Source: an uncultured Bacteroidota bacterium
GTDB taxonomy: Bacteria > Bacteroidota > Bacteroidia > Chitinophagales > Chitinophagaceae
Reading direction: 5' to 3'
NCBI GenBank assembly: GCA_903831575.1
Contig: CAIKYB010000044.1
Span: 1 to 64,000, forward strand
DNA: 64,000 nt
Numbering within the stretch: the stretch's first letter is position 1; every line of letters begins with the position of its first letter. The position numbers and the translations under genes are program-made. Below the pieces are notes generated by a model. The model had not been told where the DNA came from and searched no databases. It saw nothing but the letters and a program-made list of their open reading frames with translations. Below, piece after piece: positions 277 through 62,165 of the stretch.

Positions 277-1020
277 GTTTCAACAACACCTATAAATCCA
301 ACAAGTGGTGCCAACGGTTCAATAAGCGCCTCTGCAACTGGAGGACTTCCTCCTTATACATATAGTATCAATGGAGGAGCTTATGGTAGTTCAACTTTCC
401 CATCACTTTCTTCTGGTATTTACAGTATTTCTGCAAAAGATGCTAATAGTTGCACTGGCACTTCAAATCAAGTGACTTTAGCCTGCCCAACAATAACAGT
501 TTCTGGAACGCCTACAAGTTCTAAAGTTAATTGTGTAAACAATTCTATTTTAATTACAGCTAGCAATGGCGTTGCTCCTTATACTTATAGTAAAGATGGT
601 ACAACTTTCCAATCTAGTGCCACCTTAACTCCGTTAGCAGGGGGTACTTATACAATAACTGCAAAAGATGCGAAAGGTTGTACAGGTACAAATACAGTAA
701 CAATTTCAGCACCTGCAACTGTTCATTTTGCGACAGATGTAAAACCTACAATTAATAGCTATTGTGGAAGTGCCAATATTAGCTGTCATAACCATAACAA
801 TAACTGGACAACTTATAGTAACATTGTAGGAAGTAGTTCAGGAAGTACATGGTCTAGTAGTCTACTTACATTTATTGGACGAATAAGAGGGACAAGTTCC
901 ACCGGTTGTGTGTATTCTTCAGGTAATCACAATATGCCACCAACAAGCGCTACTGCTTGGAATACTTTTATTCAAGGGGCTTTTACCAATTGGGTCAATC
1001 AAGGATATCCAAATAACTAA
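1..1020 (+). CDS. Surface protein C-terminus: TSP1-like repeats, SprB repeats, cytochrome-like tail (5' partial)
   Basis: The frame of the 472..1020 ORF is open back to base 1, so this is the last 339 residues of a larger protein whose start lies outside. In order it holds two 46-residue tandem repeats (138-bp period) with a thrombospondin-1-like pattern (FTYSAWSxC, HQARTV, a C-G pair and a terminal SRTC), then two SprB-type beta-sandwich repeats with the PYTYS and GTYTITAKDAKGC signatures. It ends in a domain of about 100 residues resembling the haem domains of the lipoproteins at 1139 and 57004 (V.F..D..P..N, a CH, a late MPP and W..QG). In this copy the haem motif reads CGSANISCH, which is CX6CH and not canonical. 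It is probably secreted and surface exposed. No T9SS sorting tail is visible at its C-terminus. Its substrate is unknown. Confidence 0.75.
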   Translation, partial: TFTYSAWSSCVSGHQARTVIGSSPLGCTGTPPADSLSRTCTAPTTCTFTYSAWSTCVTGHQARTVIGSSPVGCTGTPPADSLSRTCTCPTITVSTTPINPTSGANGSISASATGGLPPYTYSINGGAYGSSTFPSLSSGIYSISAKDANSCTGTSNQVTLACPTITVSGTPTSSKVNCVNNSILITASNGVAPYTYSKDGTTFQSSATLTPLAGGTYTITAKDAKGCTGTNTVTISAPATVHFATDVKPTINSYCGSANISCHNHNNNWTTYSNIVGSSSGSTWSSSLLTFIGRIRGTSSTGCVYSSGNHNMPPTSATAWNTFIQGAFTNWVNQGYPNN

Positions 1021-1138
1021 ATGAATATCATTGCTTTTATATTATGGCTTCAATAATTTTGAAGTCATTGTATTCTTTCGAATTTATAAAAATAAAAAAT
1101 AACACAACCCATATTAATTAACCAAGAGAATCAAAATA

Positions 1139-1507
1139 ATGAGTACAAAAAAAATCATTTTATCTATTTTATTTTTAGCAGTTGTTTCTGTAGTTGTAAC
1201 TAGTTGTTATAAGGATAGAGAAGAGTTGCTTTATCAAGCGAAAGCTGCTGATTGCACTAACCCTGACGCACAGGGGCCAAAATTTGCAGCGGTAGAATTA
1301 ATCATGAAAAGCGAATGTGTCGGTTGTCACTCAGCAGGGGGCACTAGCCCAGATTTATCAACAAGCTGTAACATTTTAAGCCAATATGAAGGCATATACA
1401 ATCAATGTGTAGTTCTAAAAAGAATGCCGCAAGTAGCACCATTATCTACAGCATATCAAACAATTATTAAAGATTGGTATGACGCCGGCCATAAACTTAC
1501 AGACTAA
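1139..1507 (+). CDS. Monohaem c-type cytochrome lipoprotein
   Basis: This is a 122-aa protein with a lipoprotein signal peptide (lipobox VTSC near residue 23), so it is probably anchored in a membrane facing the periplasm or outside. A CVGCH haem-attachment motif lies at residues 60-64. A later RMPQ may supply the distal Met ligand. The mature N-terminus CYKDRE matches CYKDRT in the lipoprotein at 57004, and the rest aligns (PDL, MP, a terminal W...G), so the two are paralogues. It is followed by an OB-fold protein, a YceI protein and a DUF5777 barrel on the same strand with short gaps, suggesting one operon. The role is inferred to be electron transfer; the partner is unknown. Confidence 0.75.
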   Translation: MSTKKIILSILFLAVVSVVVTSCYKDREELLYQAKAADCTNPDAQGPKFAAVELIMKSECVGCHSAGGTSPDLSTSCNILSQYEGIYNQCVVLKRMPQVAPLSTAYQTIIKDWYDAGHKLTD

Positions 1508-1522
1508 TTAAATCAACAATTT

Positions 1523-1987
1523 ATGAAAAAGTGGAAAAAAGGTTTACTTGTTCTATTTGTAGTGGGTTTAGTTACAGGAGGATATGTGTTTTATATTGTA
1601 ACCAAAAAGCCACCTACTGCAGCAGATAGTAAGCCAATTAAAGAAATGAAAGCAACTAGTCTTTTTATGGAATTGGACAGCAATTTCAAAAAGGTTGATT
1701 CCTGCTACATTAATCAAAATATTGCTGTATCTGGTAAAATAAAAGAAATAGATACAGTAAGCAAGCATGTGTTCATTGATGCCGGAACATCATGCTCCAT
1801 CAATTGCAGTTTTGATAGCACCGAATTTTCAAAATTGAAAGCATCTCTGAAAGTGGGTAATGCAATAAATATAAAAGGAATCTATTCAGGTTGCGATGGA
1901 TGTGATAAATCAGCAGCTGACGATGGAATGGATATGCTTTCCACCGATAAAATAGCCCAATTAAAAACCTGCACTTTAAACAATTAA
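1523..1987 (+). CDS. Membrane-anchored OB-fold (tRNA_anti-like) protein
   Basis: This is a 154-aa protein with an N-terminal transmembrane anchor (residues about 7-26) and a periplasmic domain resembling the tRNA_anti-like OB-fold family of Bacteroidota (pattern VSGKIKEID, a central CSINCSF, GNAINIKGIYSGC). Despite the family name, no tRNA role is implied for these exported proteins. Several cysteines (SINC, GCDGCDK) could bind metal or form disulfides. It starts 15 bases after the cytochrome stop and precedes the YceI gene, so it is probably co-transcribed. The exact function is unknown. Confidence 0.6.
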   Translation: MKKWKKGLLVLFVVGLVTGGYVFYIVTKKPPTAADSKPIKEMKATSLFMELDSNFKKVDSCYINQNIAVSGKIKEIDTVSKHVFIDAGTSCSINCSFDSTEFSKLKASLKVGNAINIKGIYSGCDGCDKSAADDGMDMLSTDKIAQLKTCTLNN

Positions 1988-2010
1988 TAACATCTAAAAA
2001 ACATACTACT

Positions 2011-2565
2011 ATGAAAAAAATCCTTCTCATTTTATTGGCTCTTTTATCTATAAATGGTATTCATGCACAAAACAAAATTTACACCACAAAAACAGGACAG
2101 GCCTGGTTTGATGCTGGTACTGGCATGGAAGACATCACAGGAACCAACAAGTCGGTATTAAGTGCATTCAATCCTGCAACTGGCGACATGCAGTTCTCTG
2201 TATTAATTAAAGGGTTTGAATTCTGGAGTGCTTTGTTAATGGAGCATTTTAATGAGAATTACATGGAGAGTGATAAATTTCCTAAATCAACTTTTAAAGG
2301 GAAGGTAACTAATATGGATAAAGTCAATATTGCAAAGGACGGCACTTATCCAGTAACGGTTAAGGGTACACTTGAAATTCATGGCGTGAAAAAAGACGTA
2401 GAGACAACTGGAACATTTAAAGTAAAAGGAGAGTCAATAGCAGCGTCTTCAGAATTTACTGTAGTTTTGGATGATTATAAAATTGCTATACCAGGTGTTG
2501 TAAAAGATAAATTATCTAAAACGGCAAAAATAAAAATCAATTGTAATTACACTTTATCAAAATAA
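2011..2565 (+). CDS. YceI family periplasmic lipid-binding-like protein
   Basis: This is a 184-aa protein with a cleavable signal peptide ending HAQ near residue 20. The remainder fits the YceI family: an extended antiparallel barrel that binds isoprenoid-type molecules. Family features visible include FEFWSALLMEHFNENYMES, the FPKSTFKG segment and the GTLEIHGVKKDV hairpin. In Bacteroidota, YceI genes often neighbour DUF5777 barrels and cytochromes, as they do here. It may carry a quinone-like or other polyprenyl ligand, but this is inference. It ends 5 bases before the DUF5777 gene. Confidence 0.8.
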   Translation: MKKILLILLALLSINGIHAQNKIYTTKTGQAWFDAGTGMEDITGTNKSVLSAFNPATGDMQFSVLIKGFEFWSALLMEHFNENYMESDKFPKSTFKGKVTNMDKVNIAKDGTYPVTVKGTLEIHGVKKDVETTGTFKVKGESIAASSEFTVVLDDYKIAIPGVVKDKLSKTAKIKINCNYTLSK

Positions 2566-2570
2566 AAACA

Positions 2571-3467
2571 ATGACTATTAAAAAAACTAAGACAATTTTA
2601 TTTGCATTTGCTTTAAGTGTTTCATCTTCACTTTTTGCACAAGATGATATGTTAGCTGGAATGGATAAAGAAACACCTAGACAATATGTGACTAATGCCT
2701 TCAAATCAAGCAGGGTAATCAATGGCCACTCTATGGAATTTATAGGGAAGGGTGTATTGGATGTAAGAATCTTGCATCGTTTTGGATATGTGAATTCAGG
2801 GTTTGAGAATTTGTTTGGATTAGATCAAGCGTCTATGCGTTTTGGTTTTGATTACGGCGTAACTAAAGATCTTACCATAGGTATTGGAAGAAGTACATTT
2901 GACAAAGAGTACGATGGATTTATTAAGTACAGAGCTATTCCTCAAACTACAGGAGGGAAGCACCCTTCTCCCGTATCGGTGGTATTGGTAACAGGATCTA
3001 CAATCATTGGTACAAAATGGGCTGATCCTTCAAGAAAAAATTATTTTTCCAGCAGAATGGGATATTACAATGAAGTAATTGTAGGTAGAAAATTCAATGA
3101 AAATTTTAGTGCTCAAATTGCGCCTACACATGTACATGTTAATTTAGTTTCTGGGAAAGATTATACTAATGATTTCTTCGCCATAGGCCTAGGTGCGAGA
3201 TATAAAATATCTAAGCGTACAGCCTTTGTAGTAGACTATCACTATCTTATTAAATCAGGGAAAGACCAAACACAATTTGACCTGATGAAAAATCCATTAG
3301 CCATTGGATTTGATATTGAAACAGGGGGGCACGTTTTCCAATTGCATTTCTCTAATTCCAATGGGATGAATGAAAAAGCATTTATCACCAATACAACACA
3401 TAGCTGGGGTAAAGGAGAAATAAGTTTTGGATTTAATTTATCTAGAGTATTTACGGTGAAAAAATAA
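2571..3467 (+). CDS. DUF5777-type outer-membrane beta-barrel protein (copy 1)
   Basis: This is a 298-aa protein with a signal peptide (cleavage after LFAQ, near residue 24) followed by alternating hydrophobic and polar strands with aromatic ends, as in a small outer-membrane beta-barrel. The segment LDVRILHRFGYVNSGFENLFGLDQAS is closely matched by LEFDIQHRFGTVNNGVKDLYGLFGPS in the protein at 56044, which identifies the two as paralogues. In both loci the barrel is coupled to a CYKDR haem lipoprotein. It may be a pore or conduit for a small molecule or a docking site for the cytochrome. No function is established. Confidence 0.7.
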   Translation: MTIKKTKTILFAFALSVSSSLFAQDDMLAGMDKETPRQYVTNAFKSSRVINGHSMEFIGKGVLDVRILHRFGYVNSGFENLFGLDQASMRFGFDYGVTKDLTIGIGRSTFDKEYDGFIKYRAIPQTTGGKHPSPVSVVLVTGSTIIGTKWADPSRKNYFSSRMGYYNEVIVGRKFNENFSAQIAPTHVHVNLVSGKDYTNDFFAIGLGARYKISKRTAFVVDYHYLIKSGKDQTQFDLMKNPLAIGFDIETGGHVFQLHFSNSNGMNEKAFITNTTHSWGKGEISFGFNLSRVFTVKK

Positions 3468-52130: not shown

Positions 52131-53012
52131 CTATTTTCCTATTTTTATTGTTTTAATTAATTGCAATATCAAATAAATAAGGGTGCTATAAACGCCAATA
52201 ATAATTGCATAAGCCATAAAAAGAAGCCAGTAGGGGCTTCTAAATCTTGTTGACCACAGTTCTCTTTTACTAAAAAAATCTTCGCCTGCTACTGTAGGAA
52301 CTCCCCAGCTAGCTTTTTTTTCTACAATAATATTTCCTAGGATTTCGTTATCCTCAATTTTTGCAATAAGAATGAGATTCCCCAAACTATCTCCAGGCAT
52401 ATTGATTTTTGTAAACGGCACAGTAACCAACCCCGTGGAATCCGATGTATATGTTTCTTCGTCTCCACCAGAAAGAATTCCGACAAGACGTTTTATTCCA
52501 ACTTTCATTTCAATATCAGGCGCTGCAATTAATTTCCCGTTATCGTCTTTAAAAATTTTTACACTAATATTTTTAATGTCGTCAATCGTAGCCGTGTCAA
52601 TTTCGAGTCGTGCTTTTGTAATAGAATAATCAGATGACACTTGCTCGTCTCCCTTCATTACAATAAATAAATGAGTGGAGGACTTATCCCAAATTGATTT
52701 TAAATTGGGTGGAATAAACATTTTAGCTTTTCCAGACTCATTGGTTTTTACTTCAGAAATAAAATTTCCGGAGCTTACGCTATCCAAATAGACTTTATAT
52801 GAAATGTTTTTTTGTGCAAGGAATACTTTGTTTTTCTTAGTAGAACTTTCGAGTAATAAATATTGAACACTATTATTTATATTAAAGTATTGGAGTTTTA
52901 AAATAGGTGTTCCATCCGATGCATCTTGTGCGTCAACAATATTTGGCATTAATATGCTTATTACTAAAACAAGCAATAAACTATAGCGAATGGTCTTTTT
53001 GGCTTTCTTCAT
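52131..53012 (-). CDS. Unknown exported protein with Ig-like regions and C-terminal membrane anchor
   Basis: The protein is 293 aa from the ATG at 53012; the ORF track's first codon is a TTG. It has a signal peptide (ending VDAQ), two beta-sandwich-like stretches of the type found in transthyretin/CNA-B or Ig-like domains (KVYLDSVSSGNFISEVKTNESGKAKMFIP; IEMKVGIKRLVGILSGGDEETYTSDSTGLVTVPF) and one C-terminal helix (about 265-287) with a basic tail. So the bulk is periplasmic and held in the inner membrane. It is the last gene of the redox operon and overlaps the NrfD gene. No known family was recognised. Confidence 0.55.
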   Translation of the reverse strand: MKKAKKTIRYSLLLVLVISILMPNIVDAQDASDGTPILKLQYFNINNSVQYLLLESSTKKNKVFLAQKNISYKVYLDSVSSGNFISEVKTNESGKAKMFIPPNLKSIWDKSSTHLFIVMKGDEQVSSDYSITKARLEIDTATIDDIKNISVKIFKDDNGKLIAAPDIEMKVGIKRLVGILSGGDEETYTSDSTGLVTVPFTKINMPGDSLGNLILIAKIEDNEILGNIIVEKKASWGVPTVAGEDFFSKRELWSTRFRSPYWLLFMAYAIIIGVYSTLIYLILQLIKTIKIGK

Positions 53013-54360
53013 TTTGTTCAATTATTGTTTCATAGATTGGAATGATTGGTAGAATTCTCACAAAAAATGTTATAATCAATAGCGCGCCAGCTAAAGATCC
53101 GATTGCTATTGCCCATTCTTCCCAACTTGGAAAATAATGTTTATAGCTTTCTGGCACATTCTGCATTGGTAAAAAAGGGTGTAATAATGTGGGTGTTACA
53201 ATGAGATATCTTTTAAACCAGGCGCCAACAACAACCATTATTCCCGCAATAAACATGGGTAATGGCTTTCTTCCTTTTTTTGTAATGAGAATAAAAATAG
53301 GAATTAACATGCCTACAAAAATGGCGAACCAAAACATGATAGCATATGAACCCGAAAACAGTTCTCTTAAATGTTCCTCTTCTGCTTTCTTCATTTTAAA
53401 TGCAGGAATTAAATATTCATTGATGTTAAAATACAAATAAAGTAAACCAAGCATTACAACAATTTTGCCCATTTTTTCGAAATGTAATTCAGTAATGTAT
53501 TTTTCTAATTTGTAGTATCTCCTGAATACATACATTGCTACAACAACAGCGCCTGCTCCAACTAGAAATGCACCAGAAATAAAATAAGCTCCAAAGTTTG
53601 TGCTGTCCCAACCTGGTCTGTATGTGGTAGCAAAAAGCCATGAAGTAACTGTATGTATACAAAAAGCTACAGGAATAATCATCACGCAAAGAATATTTAT
53701 CGACTTGTCATTTATTCGAAATTGATCTTTGTGTCCTTTCCAGAAGGAGCCTAAAAAAACATATAGTTTATGAAATTTATTTACGGAAGGTTTTCTGTGT
53801 AATATCAATATTTTCAGATCGGGAAGCAAGGGCAAATATAGAAGGAATAAGCTAATGAGAAAATATGTGCTGATAACGGTAACATCCCAAATAATGGGTG
53901 ACTGTAATCTCCCATGTAAAAATAAATTCATGAACCTCTCTGGCCTTCCCATATCTACAATAATAATTAATGATGCGAATACAATTGCAGATACAGCAAT
54001 AATTTCTGCGATTCTGGTAAGTGGAGTGCTCCAATGTACATCTGCAAGTCTAAGTATTGCCGTTATTAAAGACCCCACTAAACTTATTGCAACAAAAAAC
54101 ACAAAATTAGAAATATAAATACCCCACGAAACATAATCTCTCATATTGGTTACAACCAAGCCTTGTGTTAGTTGTCTGTAATAAGCATATGCTCCAGCCA
54201 AACAAAAGATAATTAAAATTGAAGTCCAGATCATGCCTCGTTTCCCGAATCTTTTTGGAACAAGGTCGTTAATAATACGATCTCTTGAAATTGGATTATT
54301 GTTTTCCACGTTATAATATTTATTTGGTTTCCTTGGTTTGATTTTCCAAACCAGATTCAT
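52981..54360 (-). CDS. NrfD/polysulfide-reductase-type quinol-interacting membrane subunit
   Basis: The protein is 459 aa from the ATG at 54360, which overlaps the ferredoxin gene by 41 bases; a GTG at 54309 would avoid overlap. It is a multi-pass protein (about 8-10 helices) of the NrfD/PsrC family: YAYYRQLTQGLVVTNMRDYVSWGIYISNFVFFVAISLVGSLITAILRL and ISGAFLVGAGAVVVAMYVFRRYY. Such subunits exchange electrons between quinones and a periplasmic ferredoxin. Paired with the next gene upstream, it could form a PsrBC- or ActBC-like module. Confidence 0.85.
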   Translation of the reverse strand: MNLVWKIKPRKPNKYYNVENNNPISRDRIINDLVPKRFGKRGMIWTSILIIFCLAGAYAYYRQLTQGLVVTNMRDYVSWGIYISNFVFFVAISLVGSLITAILRLADVHWSTPLTRIAEIIAVSAIVFASLIIIVDMGRPERFMNLFLHGRLQSPIIWDVTVISTYFLISLFLLYLPLLPDLKILILHRKPSVNKFHKLYVFLGSFWKGHKDQFRINDKSINILCVMIIPVAFCIHTVTSWLFATTYRPGWDSTNFGAYFISGAFLVGAGAVVVAMYVFRRYYKLEKYITELHFEKMGKIVVMLGLLYLYFNINEYLIPAFKMKKAEEEHLRELFSGSYAIMFWFAIFVGMLIPIFILITKKGRKPLPMFIAGIMVVVGAWFKRYLIVTPTLLHPFLPMQNVPESYKHYFPSWEEWAIAIGSLAGALLIITFFVRILPIIPIYETIIEQNEESQKDHSL

Positions 54361-55258
54361 AAGGAAAGTTTCTATTGACAGGAGGCAGATAATATACACT
54401 TGGTTTTGTTCCGAGATCTTCCATCAATCTATACCCTGCTTTATCTTTTATTAAATCACTGAATCGAAAGGTCTCAGAACCATTTGTAACAGAATCTTCA
54501 TTTAAATCGCCAAACATAAAAACACCATTAGGGCAAGCCTGAACACAATGTGGCAGTTCTCCTTTTCTACTCATATCAGGACAAAAATCACATTTACCAA
54601 CAGTTCCTTTTTTTTGAGGCATACTGGATTCGCAGGAATAATGCTGTTCTGCAACCTGAGGATCTAATTGTGGTTCTTCCCAATTAAATACCCTTGTTGA
54701 ATATGGACATGCTGCCATACAAAATCTGCATCCAATGCAACGGTCACTATCAATTAATACAATCCCATCCTGTCTTTTAAAAGTGGCATCGACCGGACAA
54801 ACTTTTACACAAGGCGGTTCGTCGCAATGCATACAAGTTGTGGGCTGCCAATAAGGAGCAGAATGAATGCTGTCTTCCATTCCTAAAACTTTTATCCAAT
54901 TTTGTCCTGGATGTACCTGATGCATATGATTACAGGCGCTCTGACATTTACGAAGATTTTTGCAACGAGCCAGATCAATAACCATTACAAATTTCTTTCC
55001 AGCAATTCCTTTCCGTTCTTCATCATTAGTCAATGTAGGCAAATCGGGAACTGGTTTTAGAAAAGCACGATCAATTTCAATAACATCACCATTAACAGAA
55101 AGTAATTTTACTTTTTCTCCAGTGAGGGCAATAGATTCTTCCGTATGGAATGGGTGGCTGTTGTCAAGACATCCGGTAAGTACAGCTGTTGTTGCTGCAA
55201 TTCCACCGAATAGAAAATTACGTCTGGAATTATTATTTTCATTATTATTTAAACTCAT
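54320..55258 (-). CDS. Four-cluster ferredoxin-like subunit with Tat/lipoprotein signal
   Basis: This is a 312-aa protein starting with a twin-arginine signal (SRRNFLFGG) that also contains a lipobox (TGC), so it is probably exported folded and lipid-anchored. Four cysteine groups are visible: CKNLRKCQSAC (an expanded first spacing), CMHCDEPPCVKVCP, CIGCRFCMAACP and CDFC...HCVQACP. This resembles NrfC/PsrB/ActB-type electron carriers. A segment before the first cluster (KVKLLSVNGDVIEID) is shared with the 79-aa protein next door. Its catalytic partner is missing from the operon. Confidence 0.88.
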   Translation of the reverse strand: MSLNNNENNNSRRNFLFGGIAATTAVLTGCLDNSHPFHTEESIALTGEKVKLLSVNGDVIEIDRAFLKPVPDLPTLTNDEERKGIAGKKFVMVIDLARCKNLRKCQSACNHMHQVHPGQNWIKVLGMEDSIHSAPYWQPTTCMHCDEPPCVKVCPVDATFKRQDGIVLIDSDRCIGCRFCMAACPYSTRVFNWEEPQLDPQVAEQHYSCESSMPQKKGTVGKCDFCPDMSRKGELPHCVQACPNGVFMFGDLNEDSVTNGSETFRFSDLIKDKAGYRLMEDLGTKPSVYYLPPVNRNFPYESGLENQTKETK

Positions 55259-55283
55259 TGAATGTTAATTTAAAGGGTACGGA

Positions 55284-55523
55284 CTATTTTTTCTTAACCC
55301 ATTTTTTCAATTCTTCATCTGAAATCTTCTTAGCAGAATACATATTTAAATGAGCTGCATCTATTTCAACCAGGGTTCCATCCTGAGCAAGCATTTTTAC
55401 TTTTTTATCATCCTCGCTATTTTTTTTGTTTTTCAAAAATTTAAAAAATGTTGCAGAAGCTATGGCAATCGTCCCCCAGAGCAGAAATGTTTTTCTTGAA
55501 GTATTATTTTTATAAGAGTCCAT
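55284..55523 (-). CDS. Small anchored protein sharing a segment with the ferredoxin
   Basis: This is a 79-aa protein. An N-terminal SRKTFLLWGTIAIASATFF helix resembles a Tat-like signal or anchor, followed by KKVKMLAQDGTLVEIDAAHLNMYSAKK and a charged tail. The KVK.L..(D/N)G...EID.A.L stretch parallels residues about 47-66 of the ferredoxin encoded directly downstream. It may be a paralogous fragment kept as an assembly factor or small subunit. No named family was recognised. Confidence 0.6.
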   Translation of the reverse strand: MDSYKNNTSRKTFLLWGTIAIASATFFKFLKNKKNSEDDKKVKMLAQDGTLVEIDAAHLNMYSAKKISDEELKKWVKKK

Positions 55524-55606
55524 TTTTATATTATTAATTAGCCGTAATCAATTACAATATTTGAATGGAGAGAAAATAACTTCGTCCAATCAAATATACC
55601 CCATGC

Positions 55607-56011
55607 TTATTTTTTTAATGTCCTGATATAACATACCAGATCCCAACGATCTTCTTCGTCAGCTATTTTCTTTTTAAAACTTGGCATATCATCACGGCCT
55701 TCAGAAAGTTTATAAAACAATGCCCCATCTGTTTGTGCTTGTACATCTGCTTTTGAAAAATCACCAGGCTCTGTTTTCAATTGAGCGGCTTTGGTGCCAT
55801 CTCCCAATCCTTTAGTCCCATGACAAGATTTACAGTGTGTTCCCCATAATATTTTACCTGCAGCGATAGACTCTGTATTATTTGCAACAGCATTTTTTTT
55901 ATTTTTTGCGGCATCTGGAACCGGCCAAGGTTTTCGGTCTTGCATTTTGATAGTGAATCCCATGATTAATAAACCTGAAATCAACGCAATTATTATTCTA
56001 TTTACTTTCAT
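55607..56011 (-). CDS. Monohaem cytochrome c
   Basis: The protein is 134 aa from MKVNRIIIA; the 149-aa ORF start overlaps the upstream gene. A signal peptide or anchor (about 5-20) precedes a class I cytochrome domain: AAGKILWGTHCKSCHGTKGLGDGTKA with CKSCH at residues 60-64 and a GRDDMPSF Met ligand. Its length and motifs are standard. It is probably the soluble or anchored electron carrier for the NrfD/ferredoxin module. Confidence 0.9.
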   Translation of the reverse strand: MKVNRIIIALISGLLIMGFTIKMQDRKPWPVPDAAKNKKNAVANNTESIAAGKILWGTHCKSCHGTKGLGDGTKAAQLKTEPGDFSKADVQAQTDGALFYKLSEGRDDMPSFKKKIADEEDRWDLVCYIRTLKK

Positions 56012-56043
56012 CTTTTTTGTTTTATAGTTATTAAATAAATGTA

Positions 56044-56943
56044 TTAAAAATTCCAAAGTCGTGTGATGTTAAATCCTATTACGTATTGACTTTTAGTAAA
56101 ATCATTTTGATTAAACATATTATTGCTTTGTGGGACTATATTTCCGTAATTGCCAGCGAAAACCTGGAACGCATGAGAACTGGTATTTGTTTCAAATCCA
56201 AAGCAAATATTTGGGTGTGGGTTGTTTGTTGGATGTTGAGTAAGAGGCTGATCATAACCAAGAATTACAGCAGATTTCGCTGAGACTTTATATCTACCAA
56301 GTAATGAAAATGCAAGATGTCCATTATTCATTTTGTTACTGATCTCACCTTTGCTATTTACATATCCTTCAATATTATTAAACCATGAAAAGCTTGTACT
56401 TGCTTCAGCAGAAAACTTTTTATTTATTTTTCTTGCAACAATTAATTGATTAAAATATGAAAAACGATGTGCATTGTAAGTAAAGTTTGATTTATCTCTG
56501 CAATCAATAACCATGTTAGTAAAATAGGTAACACTTACAGGTATTTTTTTTGGAGCCTGTTTTAAAATAGCATACTTGGCATTAATATCAAATTGCATTC
56601 TTTCTTTTGTAATGCCAATTCCCGCAAATAAATTTTTAATTGGAGCATAGTTAATGCCAAGTCTGATATTGGATGGACCAAACAATCCATACAAATCCTT
56701 TACTCCATTATTTACTGTCCCAAATCTATGTTGGATATCAAATTCTAAGGTTCCTTTTATCGGCACCATTACAGTTTGATTATCCATTAACCAAACACTT
56801 TCAAAAGTATTTTTAACCGGCTTTACTTTCAAAGTTGGCGCCATTACTGTTGAAGAATCCTGAGCAAATAAATTATTATTAATAAGAACAAGAATCAATA
56901 AGTGAGCAACAATTAAAAACAAGTATTTTATATATTTTTTCAT
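56044..56943 (-). CDS. DUF5777-type outer-membrane beta-barrel protein (copy 2)
   Basis: This is a 299-aa protein with a signal peptide ending LFAQ, followed by barrel-like strands. LEFDIQHRFGTVNNGVKDLYGLFGPSNIRLGINYAPIKNLFAGIGITKE aligns with the copy at 2571. Both end in an Asn-rich loop and a final strand (YVIGFNITRLWNF here, ISFGFNLSRVFTV there). It sits between the haem lipoprotein and cytochrome c genes. It may be the outer-membrane component of the redox module. Confidence 0.72.
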   Translation of the reverse strand: MKKYIKYLFLIVAHLLILVLINNNLFAQDSSTVMAPTLKVKPVKNTFESVWLMDNQTVMVPIKGTLEFDIQHRFGTVNNGVKDLYGLFGPSNIRLGINYAPIKNLFAGIGITKERMQFDINAKYAILKQAPKKIPVSVTYFTNMVIDCRDKSNFTYNAHRFSYFNQLIVARKINKKFSAEASTSFSWFNNIEGYVNSKGEISNKMNNGHLAFSLLGRYKVSAKSAVILGYDQPLTQHPTNNPHPNICFGFETNTSSHAFQVFAGNYGNIVPQSNNMFNQNDFTKSQYVIGFNITRLWNF

Positions 56944-57003
56944 AATATTTTTTTTAATTTTTTAATAACAAAGTGTAGCCACAGAATATCATTTCTGTTC
57001 TTG

Positions 57004-57399
57004 TCAATTATTTTTGGCGCCTTGTTTTATCCATGCAATTACAAGTGAATTATAATCTTTATTAATTCCCGTTACTGGCATTGGAGTTCCTTTTTTCCCA
57101 GTAAGTTTTAAATACAATAAACTATTTATTGCATTGTTATGATCTATATAATTTCCAATAGTTAATGATTTGAAAGCATTAGCAGGTGTCAAATCAGGCA
57201 CTTGTCCACTTTTAGCATGACAACCACTTAGGTTACAACTCTTATTGAAAATAGGGATGATATCGTTTGAGAAGCTAACTGTTCTTGTTATTTCAGGACC
57301 GGATTCCAAAATAACTGTTCTGTCTTTATAACAGCCAGACAAGAAAGCAAAACTACTCAGTAAAATTAACAGCGGAGTTTTGATTTTAATATGTAACAT
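57004..57399 (-). CDS. Haem lipoprotein with CX4CH motif
   Basis: This is a 131-aa lipoprotein (lipobox LSGC near residue 22) whose mature start CYKDRT parallels the lipoprotein at 1139. The domain VSFSNDIIPIFNKSCNLSGCH has a CX4CH spacing (C55, C60, H61), known in some Bacteroidota and multihaem cytochromes. PDLTP, TPMPV and a terminal IAWIKQGAKNN complete the fold. It may bind haem c through the widened motif. Confidence 0.75.
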   Translation of the reverse strand: MLHIKIKTPLLILLSSFAFLSGCYKDRTVILESGPEITRTVSFSNDIIPIFNKSCNLSGCHAKSGQVPDLTPANAFKSLTIGNYIDHNNAINSLLYLKLTGKKGTPMPVTGINKDYNSLVIAWIKQGAKNN

Positions 57400-57443
57400 A
57401 ATTTGATGTTTTAAAATGAATGACTTAAATACAAGACCATTGA

Positions 57444-58775
57444 TTATTTAAACTTCAAAACTAAGTTTGGCTGAATGGCATGTTGATTATTAGAACCATC
57501 CCAAATTGCAAATCCAAATGGGAAATCCTCTTTACTTGTAAAGTCAACATCTTGTTTTAAAACATCACTAGTTTTTATTAATCTTTTATATTCTACAATC
57601 CATCCAGAGCCTGTATGAACAGCTGCGCAAGTAATATCTGCTCTTCCATTTATTAGAGGAGAAGCAATGAAACTAGGAAAACATTTTGAACCTACACTAC
57701 CCGTAACAGAGTTGCCTGTTCTAAGATAATCGTTTCCTAAATTCGGATTTATTGAATCATTAACACCATAATACAAAATACCTGTTGATGATACTCCGGT
57801 TATTTTTACCACATTAGCAGCAGAAAGTGTATCCGTAGCTAAAATGTAATTGTAATTAGTTGCATTTACTTTAATCCATAATGGTACAGTTACTGTTGCT
57901 CCGGTGCCATCCAATTTCAATGATTGTCTATTGTTAGAACTTCCCTGAGTTGCTGTTGTTGAATAGACGGGTCTGTATGGCCAAGTTGCTGAATTACTTG
58001 TTACAGTAATGTCATCTACGTGTCTTCCATTAGCGTTTCCACCTGTTAAGTTTGTAATGCCAGGACCTCCTGCCCAATCCTGATAATTATCATCCATCTG
58101 ATTAAAAACTAAATCTTTGCTCAAATGTCCCCACCACATATCTATTTTTTCATTTGCTCCATTCGTATAGTGGTTACCGCTATTGGAATTAGATTTATAT
58201 ACAGAAGGTGTTACTGAATAGTCCATATAAGGTGAGAATACATGACAACTTGCATAACAAGTTTGACTTATAAATTTGGGAGTAGACTTATCAATATTCC
58301 AAAGCATGGCCATTTTATCTTCCCCAAATCCTACTCTTGTTAATGCTCCGTTTACATCATAGGTTTTACTTGACCCTTCTTGATTCCAACGTTTAGTAGT
58401 TGAATCAAAATACCATGGCGTTACATTTGTGTTTTTGGTATTATCATTATATTCTGCTAAAAAATAAACATATTGATCGTCGTACATACAACGAAGTGAT
58501 GCTTTATAAACATCACCAATATATCCGGAGAAAAGGCCGTTGCCTGGATCAGGAACTGTTGGTTGGAAATTTAATGTTGTAGCATTTTGCCATGCAGCAT
58601 CTATTGTGCCATCTATGACAGGTGCTGTACTAGCTTTACTTGCGATTAAATCTGTTGAATTGTCTGTCTGAGCTACATCTAAAATTTGATCATCTTTCGT
58701 ACAACTAACTACATAGCCAATAGCTAAAAGAAAAGTAATTGTGATCAAAGAGAGGTTTGTTTTTAAAATTTTCAT
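57444..58775 (-). CDS. Ethylbenzene-dehydrogenase-related haem-binding lipoprotein
   Basis: This is a 443-aa lipoprotein (lipobox VVSC near residue 25). The region from about 50 onwards (APVIDGTIDAAWQNATTLNFQ, YVYFLAEYNDNTKN, KIDMWWGHLSKDL) fits the EB_dh/cytochrome c-552-DMSO-reductase-like haem-binding beta-sandwich found in gamma subunits of Mo enzymes. CYASCH at 173-178 is CX3CH, the variant seen in Bacteroidota members. The usual alpha and beta partners are absent. It is the first gene of the operon, with Fnr-like boxes upstream. Confidence 0.8.
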   Translation of the reverse strand: MKILKTNLSLITITFLLAIGYVVSCTKDDQILDVAQTDNSTDLIASKASTAPVIDGTIDAAWQNATTLNFQPTVPDPGNGLFSGYIGDVYKASLRCMYDDQYVYFLAEYNDNTKNTNVTPWYFDSTTKRWNQEGSSKTYDVNGALTRVGFGEDKMAMLWNIDKSTPKFISQTCYASCHVFSPYMDYSVTPSVYKSNSNSGNHYTNGANEKIDMWWGHLSKDLVFNQMDDNYQDWAGGPGITNLTGGNANGRHVDDITVTSNSATWPYRPVYSTTATQGSSNNRQSLKLDGTGATVTVPLWIKVNATNYNYILATDTLSAANVVKITGVSSTGILYYGVNDSINPNLGNDYLRTGNSVTGSVGSKCFPSFIASPLINGRADITCAAVHTGSGWIVEYKRLIKTSDVLKQDVDFTSKEDFPFGFAIWDGSNNQHAIQPNLVLKFK

Positions 58776-59021: not shown

Positions 59022-59035
59022 ATGACATTAATCAT
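59022..59035. promoter_or_regulatory. Fnr/Dnr-like box 1
   Basis: ATGACATTAATCAT fits TGAC-N4-ATCA, close to the Crp/Fnr consensus TTGAT-N4-ATCAA. The same core recurs at 59471. Function is inferred. Confidence 0.4.
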
Positions 59036-59470: not shown

Positions 59471-59484
59471 ATGACTTTAATCAT
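59471..59484. promoter_or_regulatory. Fnr/Dnr-like box 2
   Basis: ATGACTTTAATCAT differs from box 1 by one base. It lies about 117 bases before the membrane-protein gene at 59601. Confidence 0.4.
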
Positions 59485-59600: not shown

Positions 59601-60374
59601 ATGATAAAGAAGTATGCTGCAGAAATAAAGCACTTGAAATTTTATATTATTACTATTCCTTTCGTAATATTTTTTAGCTATGCTATTTATTTTTTTTGCG
59701 GAGATGTTATTATTGAAAAAATGAAAGATGAGAATCAATTTTTCGAATTAGGCACTTCTTTTTTATTTTTATTAACGTCAATATTATTTTTAAAGTCATA
59801 CCTATACAATAAAAATATTTTTCTATTGCTTTTATCTATTTTATTGTTTTTTGGAGCTGGAGAAGAATTAAGTTGGGGACAAAATTTACTAGGATTTAAA
59901 ACTCCTGTAGAATTAAGTAAAATTAATGTACAGAAAGAATTCAACTTACATAATATAGAAATATTTAACACCAATAATTTCGATCTTACTCATAAAAAGG
60001 GTTGGCATAGGTTATTGGAAATAAATTTTCTTTTTCGAATTTTTATTATGTTTTTTGGAATTGTTTTACCCTTTTCAGTAGCTCACAATACCTGGGCAAA
60101 AAATCTACTTTACAAAACTAAAATCCCTATTCCTCCGATATCCTTAGGAATATTTTTTTTAGTAAGTTGGATTGTTCTTGAAATACTTCTTAAATATCTT
60201 CCAGCAGGGAAAAGTGAGAATTATTATGCAAGTGCTGTTGAAATATTTGAATTTCTTACCTCATATGTTTTTTTTACAATAGGAATTTATTTTTTCCGAA
60301 TGAGAAAAATAAATATCATGGGATTAGGCATCATAGATTATTTAAACCACATTAATAATAGATATAAACAGTAA
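59601..60374 (+). CDS. Uncharacterised multi-pass membrane protein with EELSWGQ motif
   Basis: This is a 257-aa protein with about six hydrophobic helices (17-36, 48-64, 73-88, 132-155, 170-196 and 220-240). The stretch FGAGEELSWGQNLLGFKTPVELSKINVQKEFNLHNIEIFN contains two glutamates followed by an NLHN motif. I associate this with a widespread, unnamed membrane-protein family; the E-E...H set could line a membrane active site or metal site. It is very AT-rich with many Phe/Ile/Lys codons. It shares no obvious operon with neighbours. Confidence 0.6.
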   Translation: MIKKYAAEIKHLKFYIITIPFVIFFSYAIYFFCGDVIIEKMKDENQFFELGTSFLFLLTSILFLKSYLYNKNIFLLLLSILLFFGAGEELSWGQNLLGFKTPVELSKINVQKEFNLHNIEIFNTNNFDLTHKKGWHRLLEINFLFRIFIMFFGIVLPFSVAHNTWAKNLLYKTKIPIPPISLGIFFLVSWIVLEILLKYLPAGKSENYYASAVEIFEFLTSYVFFTIGIYFFRMRKINIMGLGIIDYLNHINNRYKQ

Positions 60375-60509: not shown

Positions 60510-61169
60510 ATGAATGATCAAGTCCTCGCTTTGTTGAAAAAAGATATTTTGCTTGAATTCAGGCAGAAACATACTTTTTATGGGATAATATTATATATAG
60601 CATCTACCATTTTTCTAATTTATCTCTCTTTACCTGAAAGTCCGGATGCACAAGTATGGAATAGTCTTTTCTGGGTAATTCAATTGTTTGTTTGTGTAAA
60701 TGCTGTAGCAAAGAGCTTTTTGCAGGAAAATAAAGGAAGAATGCTTTATTTTTATTCGATTTCAAGCCCCGTTCAATTTATTCTTGGAAAATTGATATTT
60801 AATGTGTTTTTAATGTTGTTTATGAGTGCCATTAGCTTGGTCCTCTTTTTTGTCTTTCTTGGTAACCCAACTATCAATACTTTGCAATTCCTGGGAATTG
60901 TCCTCCTAGGAGGAACTGGTATAAGTCTCGTATTTACATTAATGAGTGCTATTGCAGCAAAAGCTCAACAAAATGCTGCCCTGATTGCTATTCTGGGGTT
61001 TCCTGTCATTCTCCCTCAATTGATGTTGTTAATAAAATTGAGCAAAGCAGCATTTGCCGAGGTGTTTAGGGATGGTGCTATTACCCAATTAGTAGGGCTG
61101 ACTGCCCTTATGGATGTTTTGGTTGTTGTTCTCGCTATTGTATTGTTCCCCTATTTGTGGAAAGATTAA
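60510..61169 (+). CDS. ccmB: Haem exporter protein CcmB
   Basis: This is a 219-aa inner-membrane protein with six helices. It has the CcmB start ALLKKDILLEFRQKHTFYGIILYIASTIFLIYL and FLQENKGRMLYFYSISSPVQFILGKLIFN. It is part of the CcmABCD ABC-type system that delivers haem to CcmE for cytochrome c maturation. ccmA is not in this window. Its presence fits the several c-type cytochromes encoded nearby. Confidence 0.92.
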   Translation: MNDQVLALLKKDILLEFRQKHTFYGIILYIASTIFLIYLSLPESPDAQVWNSLFWVIQLFVCVNAVAKSFLQENKGRMLYFYSISSPVQFILGKLIFNVFLMLFMSAISLVLFFVFLGNPTINTLQFLGIVLLGGTGISLVFTLMSAIAAKAQQNAALIAILGFPVILPQLMLLIKLSKAAFAEVFRDGAITQLVGLTALMDVLVVVLAIVLFPYLWKD

Positions 61170-61207
61170 ATTGACAAATAGATCCCCAATTTGAATATTA
61201 TTTTTTA

Positions 61208-61235
61208 TTGTGTGGCACACTTCTCCTTAACTTTG
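61208..61235 (+). promoter_or_regulatory. ccmC promoter (Bacteroidota type)
   Basis: TTG (61208-61210), a 17-base gap and TAACTTTG (61228-61235), an exact TAnnTTTG match. The implied leader is about 20 bases. Confidence 0.65.
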
Positions 61236-61261
61236 CGCCACTTAAATAAATACCCCGATTG

Positions 61262-61960
61262 GTGTATAAAAACTGGTGGAAAATATTATCCTTTTTATTA
61301 TTGGTCTATACCATAACTGCAGGCTTATTGCTTGATGTTCCAAAACTGCCCATTTTAAATGAAACGATCCGCAACTTATACTTTCATGTTTGCATGTGGT
61401 TTGGCATGATGATCTTATTCATCATAAGTTTTGTTTACAGCGTTAAATACTTAAAAGACTTCAATTACCGACATGATGTTTATGCTACGAACTTTGCTGC
61501 AGTTGGCTGTTTGTTCGGCATTCTTGGTTATCTCACAGGGGTGTTATGGGTTAACGTTACTTGGCTCACTGATCAGAGACAATCTTTAGGTAGTGTATTG
61601 AAAGAACCTAAATTAATTGGAGCCGCAATTGCACTGCTTATTTATGGCGCCTATTTTGTATTGAGAGGATCTTTTACAGACATCGATAAAAGAGCAAGGG
61701 TAAGTGCGGTGTATAATATTTTTGCTTTTGCTATGCTATTTCCCAGCATATGGATTATACCAAGAATTGTAGGAAGCCTGCATCCCGGCGCCCCGGGAAG
61801 TGATAGCGGGAATCCTGCTTTGGACAGAAAAGATTTAGATGGCGCCATGAGAATGGTTTTTTATCCTGCCATAATAGGTTGGACTTTACTGGGTGTTTGG
61901 ATCGCCACTTTAAAAATCAGAATAGATTTAATTAAAAATAAAAATATAATCAATGAATAG
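61262..61960 (+). CDS. ccmC: Cytochrome c biogenesis protein CcmC (CcsA/CcmC family)
   Basis: This is a 232-aa protein from a GTG (a TTG lies one codon upstream). It has six helices and the tryptophan-rich WWD-like region LTGVLWVNVTWLTDQRQSLGSVLKEPKLIGAAIALLIYGAYFVLRG. HVCMWFGMM and the later SLHPGAPGS give the conserved haem-ligand histidines. CcmC loads haem onto CcmE. It overlaps the CcmD-like gene by 8 bases. Confidence 0.9.
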   Translation: MYKNWWKILSFLLLVYTITAGLLLDVPKLPILNETIRNLYFHVCMWFGMMILFIISFVYSVKYLKDFNYRHDVYATNFAAVGCLFGILGYLTGVLWVNVTWLTDQRQSLGSVLKEPKLIGAAIALLIYGAYFVLRGSFTDIDKRARVSAVYNIFAFAMLFPSIWIIPRIVGSLHPGAPGSDSGNPALDRKDLDGAMRMVFYPAIIGWTLLGVWIATLKIRIDLIKNKNIINE

Positions 61961-62165
61961 ATTATTACTTATAATAGTTGGATTGTGTTGTTCATTTATA
62001 GCTTCTGCTCAAGACAAAATAGAAATGGCAGATGTTATGCGCAGCAATGGAAAAATTTACACGGTGGTAGCTGTTTGTTTAACTATCCTAACCGGCTTAT
62101 TCATTTATGTTTTTATGATTGATAGAAAGATAAATAAATTAGAAAAAGAACATTCTATTAAGTAA
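61953..62165 (+). CDS. CcmD family small membrane protein
   Basis: This is a 70-aa protein with a signal-like N-terminus (ending SASAQ-type IASAQ), a central helix (about 35-57, IYTVVAVCLTILTGLFIYVFMID) and a charged tail (RKINKLEKEHSIK). Position after ccmC, size and topology fit CcmD, which helps release holo-CcmE. Sequence alone is too short for certainty. Confidence 0.75.
   Translation: MNRLLLIIVGLCCSFIASAQDKIEMADVMRSNGKIYTVVAVCLTILTGLFIYVFMIDRKINKLEKEHSIK

Follow-up and report, generated by a model that had tools for sequence, protein, structure and literature searches.

The window analyzed here is a stretch of 64,000 nucleotides (nt) from an uncultured bacterium of the Chitinophagaceae (contig CAIKYB010000044.1). 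Eight co-directional open reading frames (ORFs) on its minus strand, from 52131 to 58775, encode, in this order, an EB_dh lipoprotein, a CX4CH heme lipoprotein, a DUF5777 barrel, a cytochrome c, a 79-aa protein, an NrfC with a twin-arginine translocation (Tat) signal, an NrfD, and an anchored protein (Table 1). An earlier note, made from the sequence alone, had described these genes. We found all of the ORFs at the coordinates given there, with the same order and strand, and Pfam confirmed five of the families. Alignments revised some start codons: NrfD begins at GTG 54309 (not 54399), the cytochrome c begins at ATG 56011, and the last gene, for the anchored protein, probably begins at ATG 53012. 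After this revision the intergenic gaps run from about -32 to +83 nt, which bears out the short gaps and overlaps reported before. Between the operon genes, no terminator-like sites were found above chance.

The gene set is conserved: related genomes have it in the same order, it also occurs in further families, and tight neighbor pairs are found in many loci; it is therefore more than a chance association. The core, defined as NrfC and NrfD together, is present in 108 loci from several Bacteroidota families. Many of these loci are interrupted by contig ends, and with that limit they contain the anchored protein in 105 cases, the cytochrome c in 95, DUF5777 in 90, the heme lipoprotein in 85, the 79-aa protein in 77, EB_dh in 41, YceI in 34, and a six-heme lipoprotein in 2. 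The anchored protein is encoded directly after NrfD in 105 of the 108 loci. Median gaps are -23 between NrfD and the anchor (89 loci), +12 between NrfC and NrfD (88 loci), and +11 between the heme lipoprotein and DUF5777 (82 pairs). In a set of 148 relatives, the EB_dh protein is encoded by 12 genomes of the same genus, one of them the window's own, and the NrfC core by 25 genomes. A scan of named genomes gave 552 NrfD relatives, and 80 loci were kept; named carriers of the core are Limnovirga soli KCS-6, Niastella vici DJ57, Chitinophaga costaii A37T2, Pontibacter ramchanderi LP43, and Chryseolinea serpens. The hosts of the conserved eight-gene set are freshwater and soil Bacteroidota. The system is patchy, because only 8 of 346 sampled Bacteroidota genomes have NrfC relatives at E < 1e-90 (families f1, f23, f25, f28, and f44).

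In a profile search, the solved structures nearest to NrfD belong to ActC from alternative complex III (ACIII) (6f0k_C; E = 1.8e-71). ACIII is a quinol:cytochrome c oxidoreductase (PMC5928083). Of the quinol-site positions defined for NrfD-like proteins (PMC8076601), Asp149, Ser167, and Asp172 are kept (longer-ORF numbering), and Asp149 is the protonatable position in transmembrane helix 2 (TMH2). No counterpart of ActC Asp253 is kept. A tree of NrfD proteins that leaves out a DsrP entry in the wrong reading frame and sequences on very long branches does not settle the branching order of ActC, DsrP, and the operon clade. Therefore, the ActC link rests mainly on the profile scores. In NrfC, the second Cys of motif 1 is replaced by Leu, and 107 of 107 scored homologs have no Cys there. 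One cluster is thus predicted to be altered, and it is probably [3Fe-4S] or otherwise ligated. The 79-aa protein matches no Pfam family. However, BLASTP aligned it with the N terminus of NrfC (32% over 75 aa; E = 4e-5), a similarity that had previously been missed. The anchored protein has no match in Pfam or NCBIfam; a signal peptide and a C-terminal transmembrane helix can be recognized in it by eye. The operon cytochrome c, of class I, keeps CXXCH in 86 of 86 relatives and resembles the cytochrome of the genome's own ACIII cluster (31%).

At the outer membrane, the EB_dh protein has a fold matching those of NxrC (7b04) and EbdC (2ivf_C) and also carries CBM9_1 (Pfam). It contains a c-heme motif that had likewise escaped notice, CYASCH (Cys173/Cys177/His178). 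This is a CX3CH sequence, an accepted c-heme motif present, for example, in the quinol oxidase ImcH (PMC6295460). The CX3CH columns and His432 are invariant in 38 relatives. One could imagine bis-His ligation of the heme by His178 and His432, in a region where the NxrC alignment is ambiguous. The lipobox reads SCTKDDQ. In Capnocytophaga, the optimal surface-export signal was defined experimentally as C-X-K-(D/E)2-X (PMC5080379), and the C-T-K-D-D of the window protein fits the Bacteroidota signal C-X-K-(D/E)2 exactly. The YceI lipoproteins that take the place of EB_dh elsewhere are mostly acid-rich just after the lipobox Cys, and the heme lipoprotein has C-Y-K-D there, an incomplete signal. 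This 131-aa heme lipoprotein matched no family; CX4CH is present in 67 of its 69 relatives. Most copies of DUF5777 have an aromatic C-terminal residue. Its AlphaFold2 model has 12 strands (mean predicted local distance difference test score, 87.6), and the nearest solved fold is the NanC porin (2wjq). His72 and His257 (window protein) are invariant in all 53 aligned barrels, but by strand alternation they looked lipid-facing, and we claim no heme role for them. The pairing of DUF5777 with the CX4CH lipoprotein in 82 cases means that an outer-membrane barrel and a c-type cytochrome are encoded together.

In most complete loci, the gene before the heme lipoprotein and DUF5777 encodes either an EB_dh or a YceI lipoprotein, which we call the head. 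In two distant genomes (loci L173 and L174), a collagen-linked lipoprotein with six CXXCH motifs replaces or joins the head. In a second arrangement (loci L189 to L197), the genes that run divergently from the core encode a PSCyt1-like lipoprotein with two domains, a longer heme lipoprotein, and DUF5777. The head swaps and the second arrangement argue for one outer module in several versions on one inner module. Judging from the encoded proteins, the head position is exchangeable among EB_dh, YceI, six-heme, and two-heme lipoproteins. Because the head differs, the acceptor probably differs between genomes.

Some loci hold further combinations. Locus L174 (5053-15089) has two successive NrfC-NrfD-anchor-cytochrome c units behind one EB_dh/heme lipoprotein/DUF5777 module. 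Beside the system in locus L034 (463-3071) are a MauG/MbnH-like di-heme enzyme with a type IX secretion system tail and a YceI lipoprotein, and downstream of it in locus L171 (16161-17907; genome G290) are a cytochrome c and a CcoN/NorB-like heme-copper subunit. The window itself contains, at 472-3467 on the plus strand, a second module, without NrfCD, that encodes one after another a PSCyt1-like heme protein, a heme lipoprotein (CVGCH), a 154-aa protein, YceI, and DUF5777.

NrfC/NrfD pairs and EB_dh gamma subunits belong to molybdenum (Mo) enzymes, and the operon had been thought to lack its catalytic partner. We found no Mo-oxidoreductase next to the system in any of the 108 loci with a profile built from three Mo-oxidoreductases, which does find such genes in four other NrfCD loci (L175 to L178) and in the control L020. 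The possibility that a Mo alpha subunit is always adjacent, and that this locus was relocated, therefore fails. The window's own genome holds a single PF00384 protein. It is FdhF/YdeP-like, lies beside fdhD and mobA, and has no iron-sulfur (Fe-S) or anchor subunits. Two other genomes, G064 with the full eight-gene operon and G017 with the core, are both rated 100% complete and have no PF00384 match. We therefore rejected a Mo-enzyme partner encoded elsewhere. Because no Mo enzyme stands beside any locus and complete genomes with the system have no Mo-oxidoreductase, we conclude that a catalytic partner is not missing. The idea of an absent partner gives way to a different picture, in which the closest solved relative of NrfD is ActC of ACIII, a complex that works without Mo, and several interchangeable heads exist, EB_dh among them. 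One could also see in the operon an accessory part, relocated or degenerate, of some Mo enzyme encoded elsewhere. This proposal draws on the families of these subunits and on the one Mo-oxidoreductase of the own genome, and given the results above, it is largely refuted. Of the loci found with the Mo profile, L175 and L176, from two f25 genomes, contain a different NrfC/NrfD pair, two multiheme cytochromes, and a Mo enzyme, and their NrfD scores above the DsrP cutoff.

Two palindromes of the Crp/Fnr type lie in the 825-nt intergenic region of the operon (Table 1). The TGA-N6-TCA core is typical of Crp/Fnr proteins. The motif TGAYWNNWRTCA was derived from part of the same upstream regions, so that its p values are optimistic; it is found in the 400 nt preceding 23 of 42 EB_dh genes (p = 1.3e-16), 12 of 27 YceI heads (p = 1.5e-8), and both six-heme heads (p = 0.003), compared in each case with 30 of 597 other genes from the same loci. 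Even so, its first match (12 of 79 versus 5 of 626; p = 7e-9) stood out from about 36,000 patterns tried. Upstream of heads, there are often two copies exactly 22 bp apart. The upstream regions of DUF5777, NrfD, and the anchored protein show no enrichment of the motif. The canonical FNR box TTGATN4ATCAA and the CRP box were also tried, and neither is enriched upstream of the EB_dh genes. The own genome has 18 extended palindrome sites, among them the two at the operon, another before a universal-stress/PNPOx-like pair, and one next to FixH/SafE-type genes. REC-CRP regulators are encoded near the system in seven loci and PAS kinases in eight. As read from the DNA, the shared palindrome, its other sites, and the nearby regulators point to oxygen limitation. 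NosZ is present in 19 of 25 genomes with the core and in 39 of 123 without it (p = 7e-5; within the genus, p = 0.003; both statistics ignore phylogeny and genome size). This co-occurrence points to oxygen limitation too, though not for this genome. The association of NirK with the core is not significant. Close to the operon, on the opposite strand, are genes recognized by eye as cytochrome c maturation genes, namely ccmB, ccmC, and a small ccmD-like gene (60510-62165, plus strand).

Table 1. Genes of the operon and upstream palindromes, in window coordinates
Feature	Position	Strand	Remarks
Head lipoprotein, EB_dh (type II DMSO reductase gamma-like)	57444..58775	-	443 aa; Pfam EB_dh 2.6e-20
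Monoheme lipoprotein, CX4CH (CNLSGCH)	57004..57399	-	131 aa; PSCyt1-like MP...WI.QGA pattern
DUF5777 outer-membrane beta-barrel	56044..56943	-	299 aa; Pfam 1.6e-67
Periplasmic monoheme cytochrome c (CKSCH)	55607..56011	-	134 aa; Pfam Cytochrom_C 4e-10
79-aa Tat-like protein (SRKTFL), truncated paralog of the NrfC N terminus	55284..55523	-	BLASTP
NrfC-type Tat iron-sulfur protein	54320..55258	-	312 aa; Pfam 4Fe-4S 1.2e-21
NrfD-type quinol-binding membrane subunit, ActC-like	52981..54309	-	~442 aa; Pfam 3.9e-36
Inner-membrane-anchored periplasmic protein ("Ig-like")	52131..53012	-	C-terminal transmembrane helix
Crp/Fnr-type palindrome ATGACATTAATCAT	59022..59035		Upstream of the operon
Second palindrome ATGACTTTAATCAT	59471..59484		Same intergenic region, ~115 nt before the divergent gene at 59601

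We compared the operon with known systems. It resembles ACIII (ActABCDEF) in its NrfD, in an Fe-S protein like ActB domain B2, in a monoheme cytochrome c, and in needing no Mo cofactor. However, its NrfC is a stand-alone 312-aa Fe-S protein without the fused Mo-like ActB1 domain, the pentaheme ActA, ActD, and ActF are missing, and an outer-membrane module is added; a separate ACIII is encoded on contig C16 of the same genome. NrfC approaches DsrO of the DsrMKJOP complex (190 bits; cutoff, 200) but stays below the cutoff, as does NrfD for DsrP (140 bits; cutoff, 350). In addition, the first Fe-S motif of NrfC is short of one Cys, the operon has no triheme DsrJ, and PF02665, for a DsrM-like membrane cytochrome b, is absent from the own genome. 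We therefore rejected membership in DsrMKJOP. For the NrfABCD nitrite reductase, NrfC scores only 119 bits (cutoff, 378), and the operon has no gene for a pentaheme NrfA. Complex iron-sulfur molybdoenzymes of the Nrf/Psr/Ebd type have a Mo catalytic subunit, and none accompanies these NrfCD/EB_dh genes. The EB_dh protein shares fold and family with the gamma subunits of type II dimethyl sulfoxide (DMSO) reductases (EbdC and NxrC), but it is a lipoprotein with CX3CH and an export signal, and no Mo alpha subunit is nearby. With the porin-cytochrome conduits (MtrCAB, MtoAB, PCC3, and Cyc2) the operon shares a quinol oxidase, a periplasmic cytochrome, an outer-membrane barrel, and a predicted surface heme lipoprotein, whereas its barrel is modeled with 12 strands, its cytochromes are monoheme rather than decaheme, and the barrel and lipoprotein families are unrelated. 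The Mtr-type barrel is large, unlike the DUF5777 model. Geobacter CbcSTU has NrfC/NrfD-like subunits, as does the operon, and would share the role proposed for it. CymA, CbcL, and ImcH have the role proposed here, that of a quinol oxidase for extracellular electron transfer (PMC6295460), but they are multiheme cytochromes, whereas the inner-membrane part of the operon is heme-free.

We suggest that the operon encodes a low-oxygen, quinol-driven electron route across the envelope with swappable surface heads, and we judge the chances that this is correct to be about even. In this scenario, the operon would be made at low oxygen. NrfD would oxidize menaquinol at the periplasmic side, like ActC in ACIII, and would pass electrons to the NrfC clusters, with the 79-aa protein and the anchored protein serving as accessory inner-membrane subunits. 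NrfC would then reduce the periplasmic cytochrome c, which would in turn reduce the CX4CH lipoprotein paired with DUF5777 at the outer membrane. From this pair, electrons would reach the surface head, which would meet the acceptor; in the EB_dh head, the heme pocket may have been turned into a c-type site. A quinol-to-outer-membrane route is the best fit because of the Tat-type NrfC, the ActC-like NrfD, the periplasmic cytochrome c, the heme lipoprotein and barrel at the outer membrane, and the EB_dh export signal. The sequences show the gene content and its conservation, the cofactor motifs, the ActC relationship, the absence of Mo enzymes, the head exchange, the export signal, and the shared operator; we infer how the subunits touch, which way electrons flow, how they cross the outer membrane, and what accepts them. 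It is possible, though we think it rather doubtful, that the system is a new, Bacteroidota-specific class of outer-membrane conduit, with a heme-free NrfCD quinol oxidase, a monoheme relay, a 12-strand DUF5777 barrel with its monoheme lipoprotein, interchangeable surface heads, and a Crp/Fnr-type low-oxygen regulator.

The electron conduit of the earlier note thus keeps its place as the best fit to the gene set, but the crossing is a prediction, and the barrel model does not favor it. Several observations weigh against the trans-envelope route. In the model, the 12-strand barrel is probably too narrow for a cytochrome. Its nearest fold is NanC, unlike the MtrB-type conduits, so the outer-membrane crossing is unexplained. 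The operon encodes no membrane-spanning heme protein and few hemes overall, with three c-type motifs in the window. The YceI heads have no redox cofactor that we know of. The exact two-acid export signal is found in just 6 of 24 EB_dh relatives; in the others, K stands at +3 with a single acidic residue close by, in most of them D. Finally, NosZ is absent from the own genome and its closest relatives, and for this we also rejected a specific role in reducing nitrite or N2O.

The barrel model would be better suited to another arrangement, in which a compact quinol:cytochrome c oxidoreductase resembling ACIII supplies, when oxygen is scarce, an acceptor in the periplasm, such as a cbb3 oxidase or N2O reductase. 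The barrel and the lipoproteins would then have some task in the envelope, for example substrate entry or cytochrome docking, and electrons would not cross the outer membrane. The ActC-like NrfD, the similarity of the cytochrome c to that of the own ACIII, the co-occurrence of NosZ with the core, and the operator site beside FixH/SafE genes agree with this arrangement. However, the genome already has an ACIII, most loci have the outer and inner modules linked, the heads carry hemes and, in the window, a surface-export signal, and NosZ is missing from the own genome and its closest relatives. We consider this arrangement unlikely.

The heads may instead be reductases or binders of low-oxygen substrates, for example nitric oxide, a quinone-like shuttle, or an organic acceptor, with NrfCD only supplying electrons. 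Unrelated folds in one slot (EB_dh, YceI, and multiheme) suggest substrate choice, and the six-heme head weakly matches the NrfA family. However, every EB_dh protein known to date is an electron-transfer subunit, we identified no catalytic residues, and YceI has no known redox center; we regard substrate-specific heads as improbable. Electrons might also run inward, from extracellular donors oxidized at the head to the quinone pool or cytochromes. NrfCD-type modules can run toward quinone, as in QrcABCD, a cytochrome c3:menaquinone oxidoreductase (PMC13059093), and the sequence leaves the direction free. The low-oxygen-type operator and the ActC relationship favor quinol oxidation, which makes an inward chain very unlikely.

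Such a complex does not appear in a review that covers 4,545 NrfD-like proteins (PMC8076601). In the searchable literature, which is mostly open-access and has no bioRxiv preprints, we found no mention of DUF5777, nothing on NrfD with EB_dh or YceI in Bacteroidetes or on electroactive Chitinophagaceae, and no description of the eight-gene system, whose parts belong to known families. In fresh water and soil, Chitinophagaceae and their relatives are abundant, and the usual view of them is that of aerobic polymer degraders. If the trans-envelope route is correct, a low-oxygen path from menaquinol to the cell surface would be an unrecognized respiratory outlet for these bacteria, and DUF5777, the CX4CH lipoproteins as a family, and the surface YceI lipoproteins would each gain a function.

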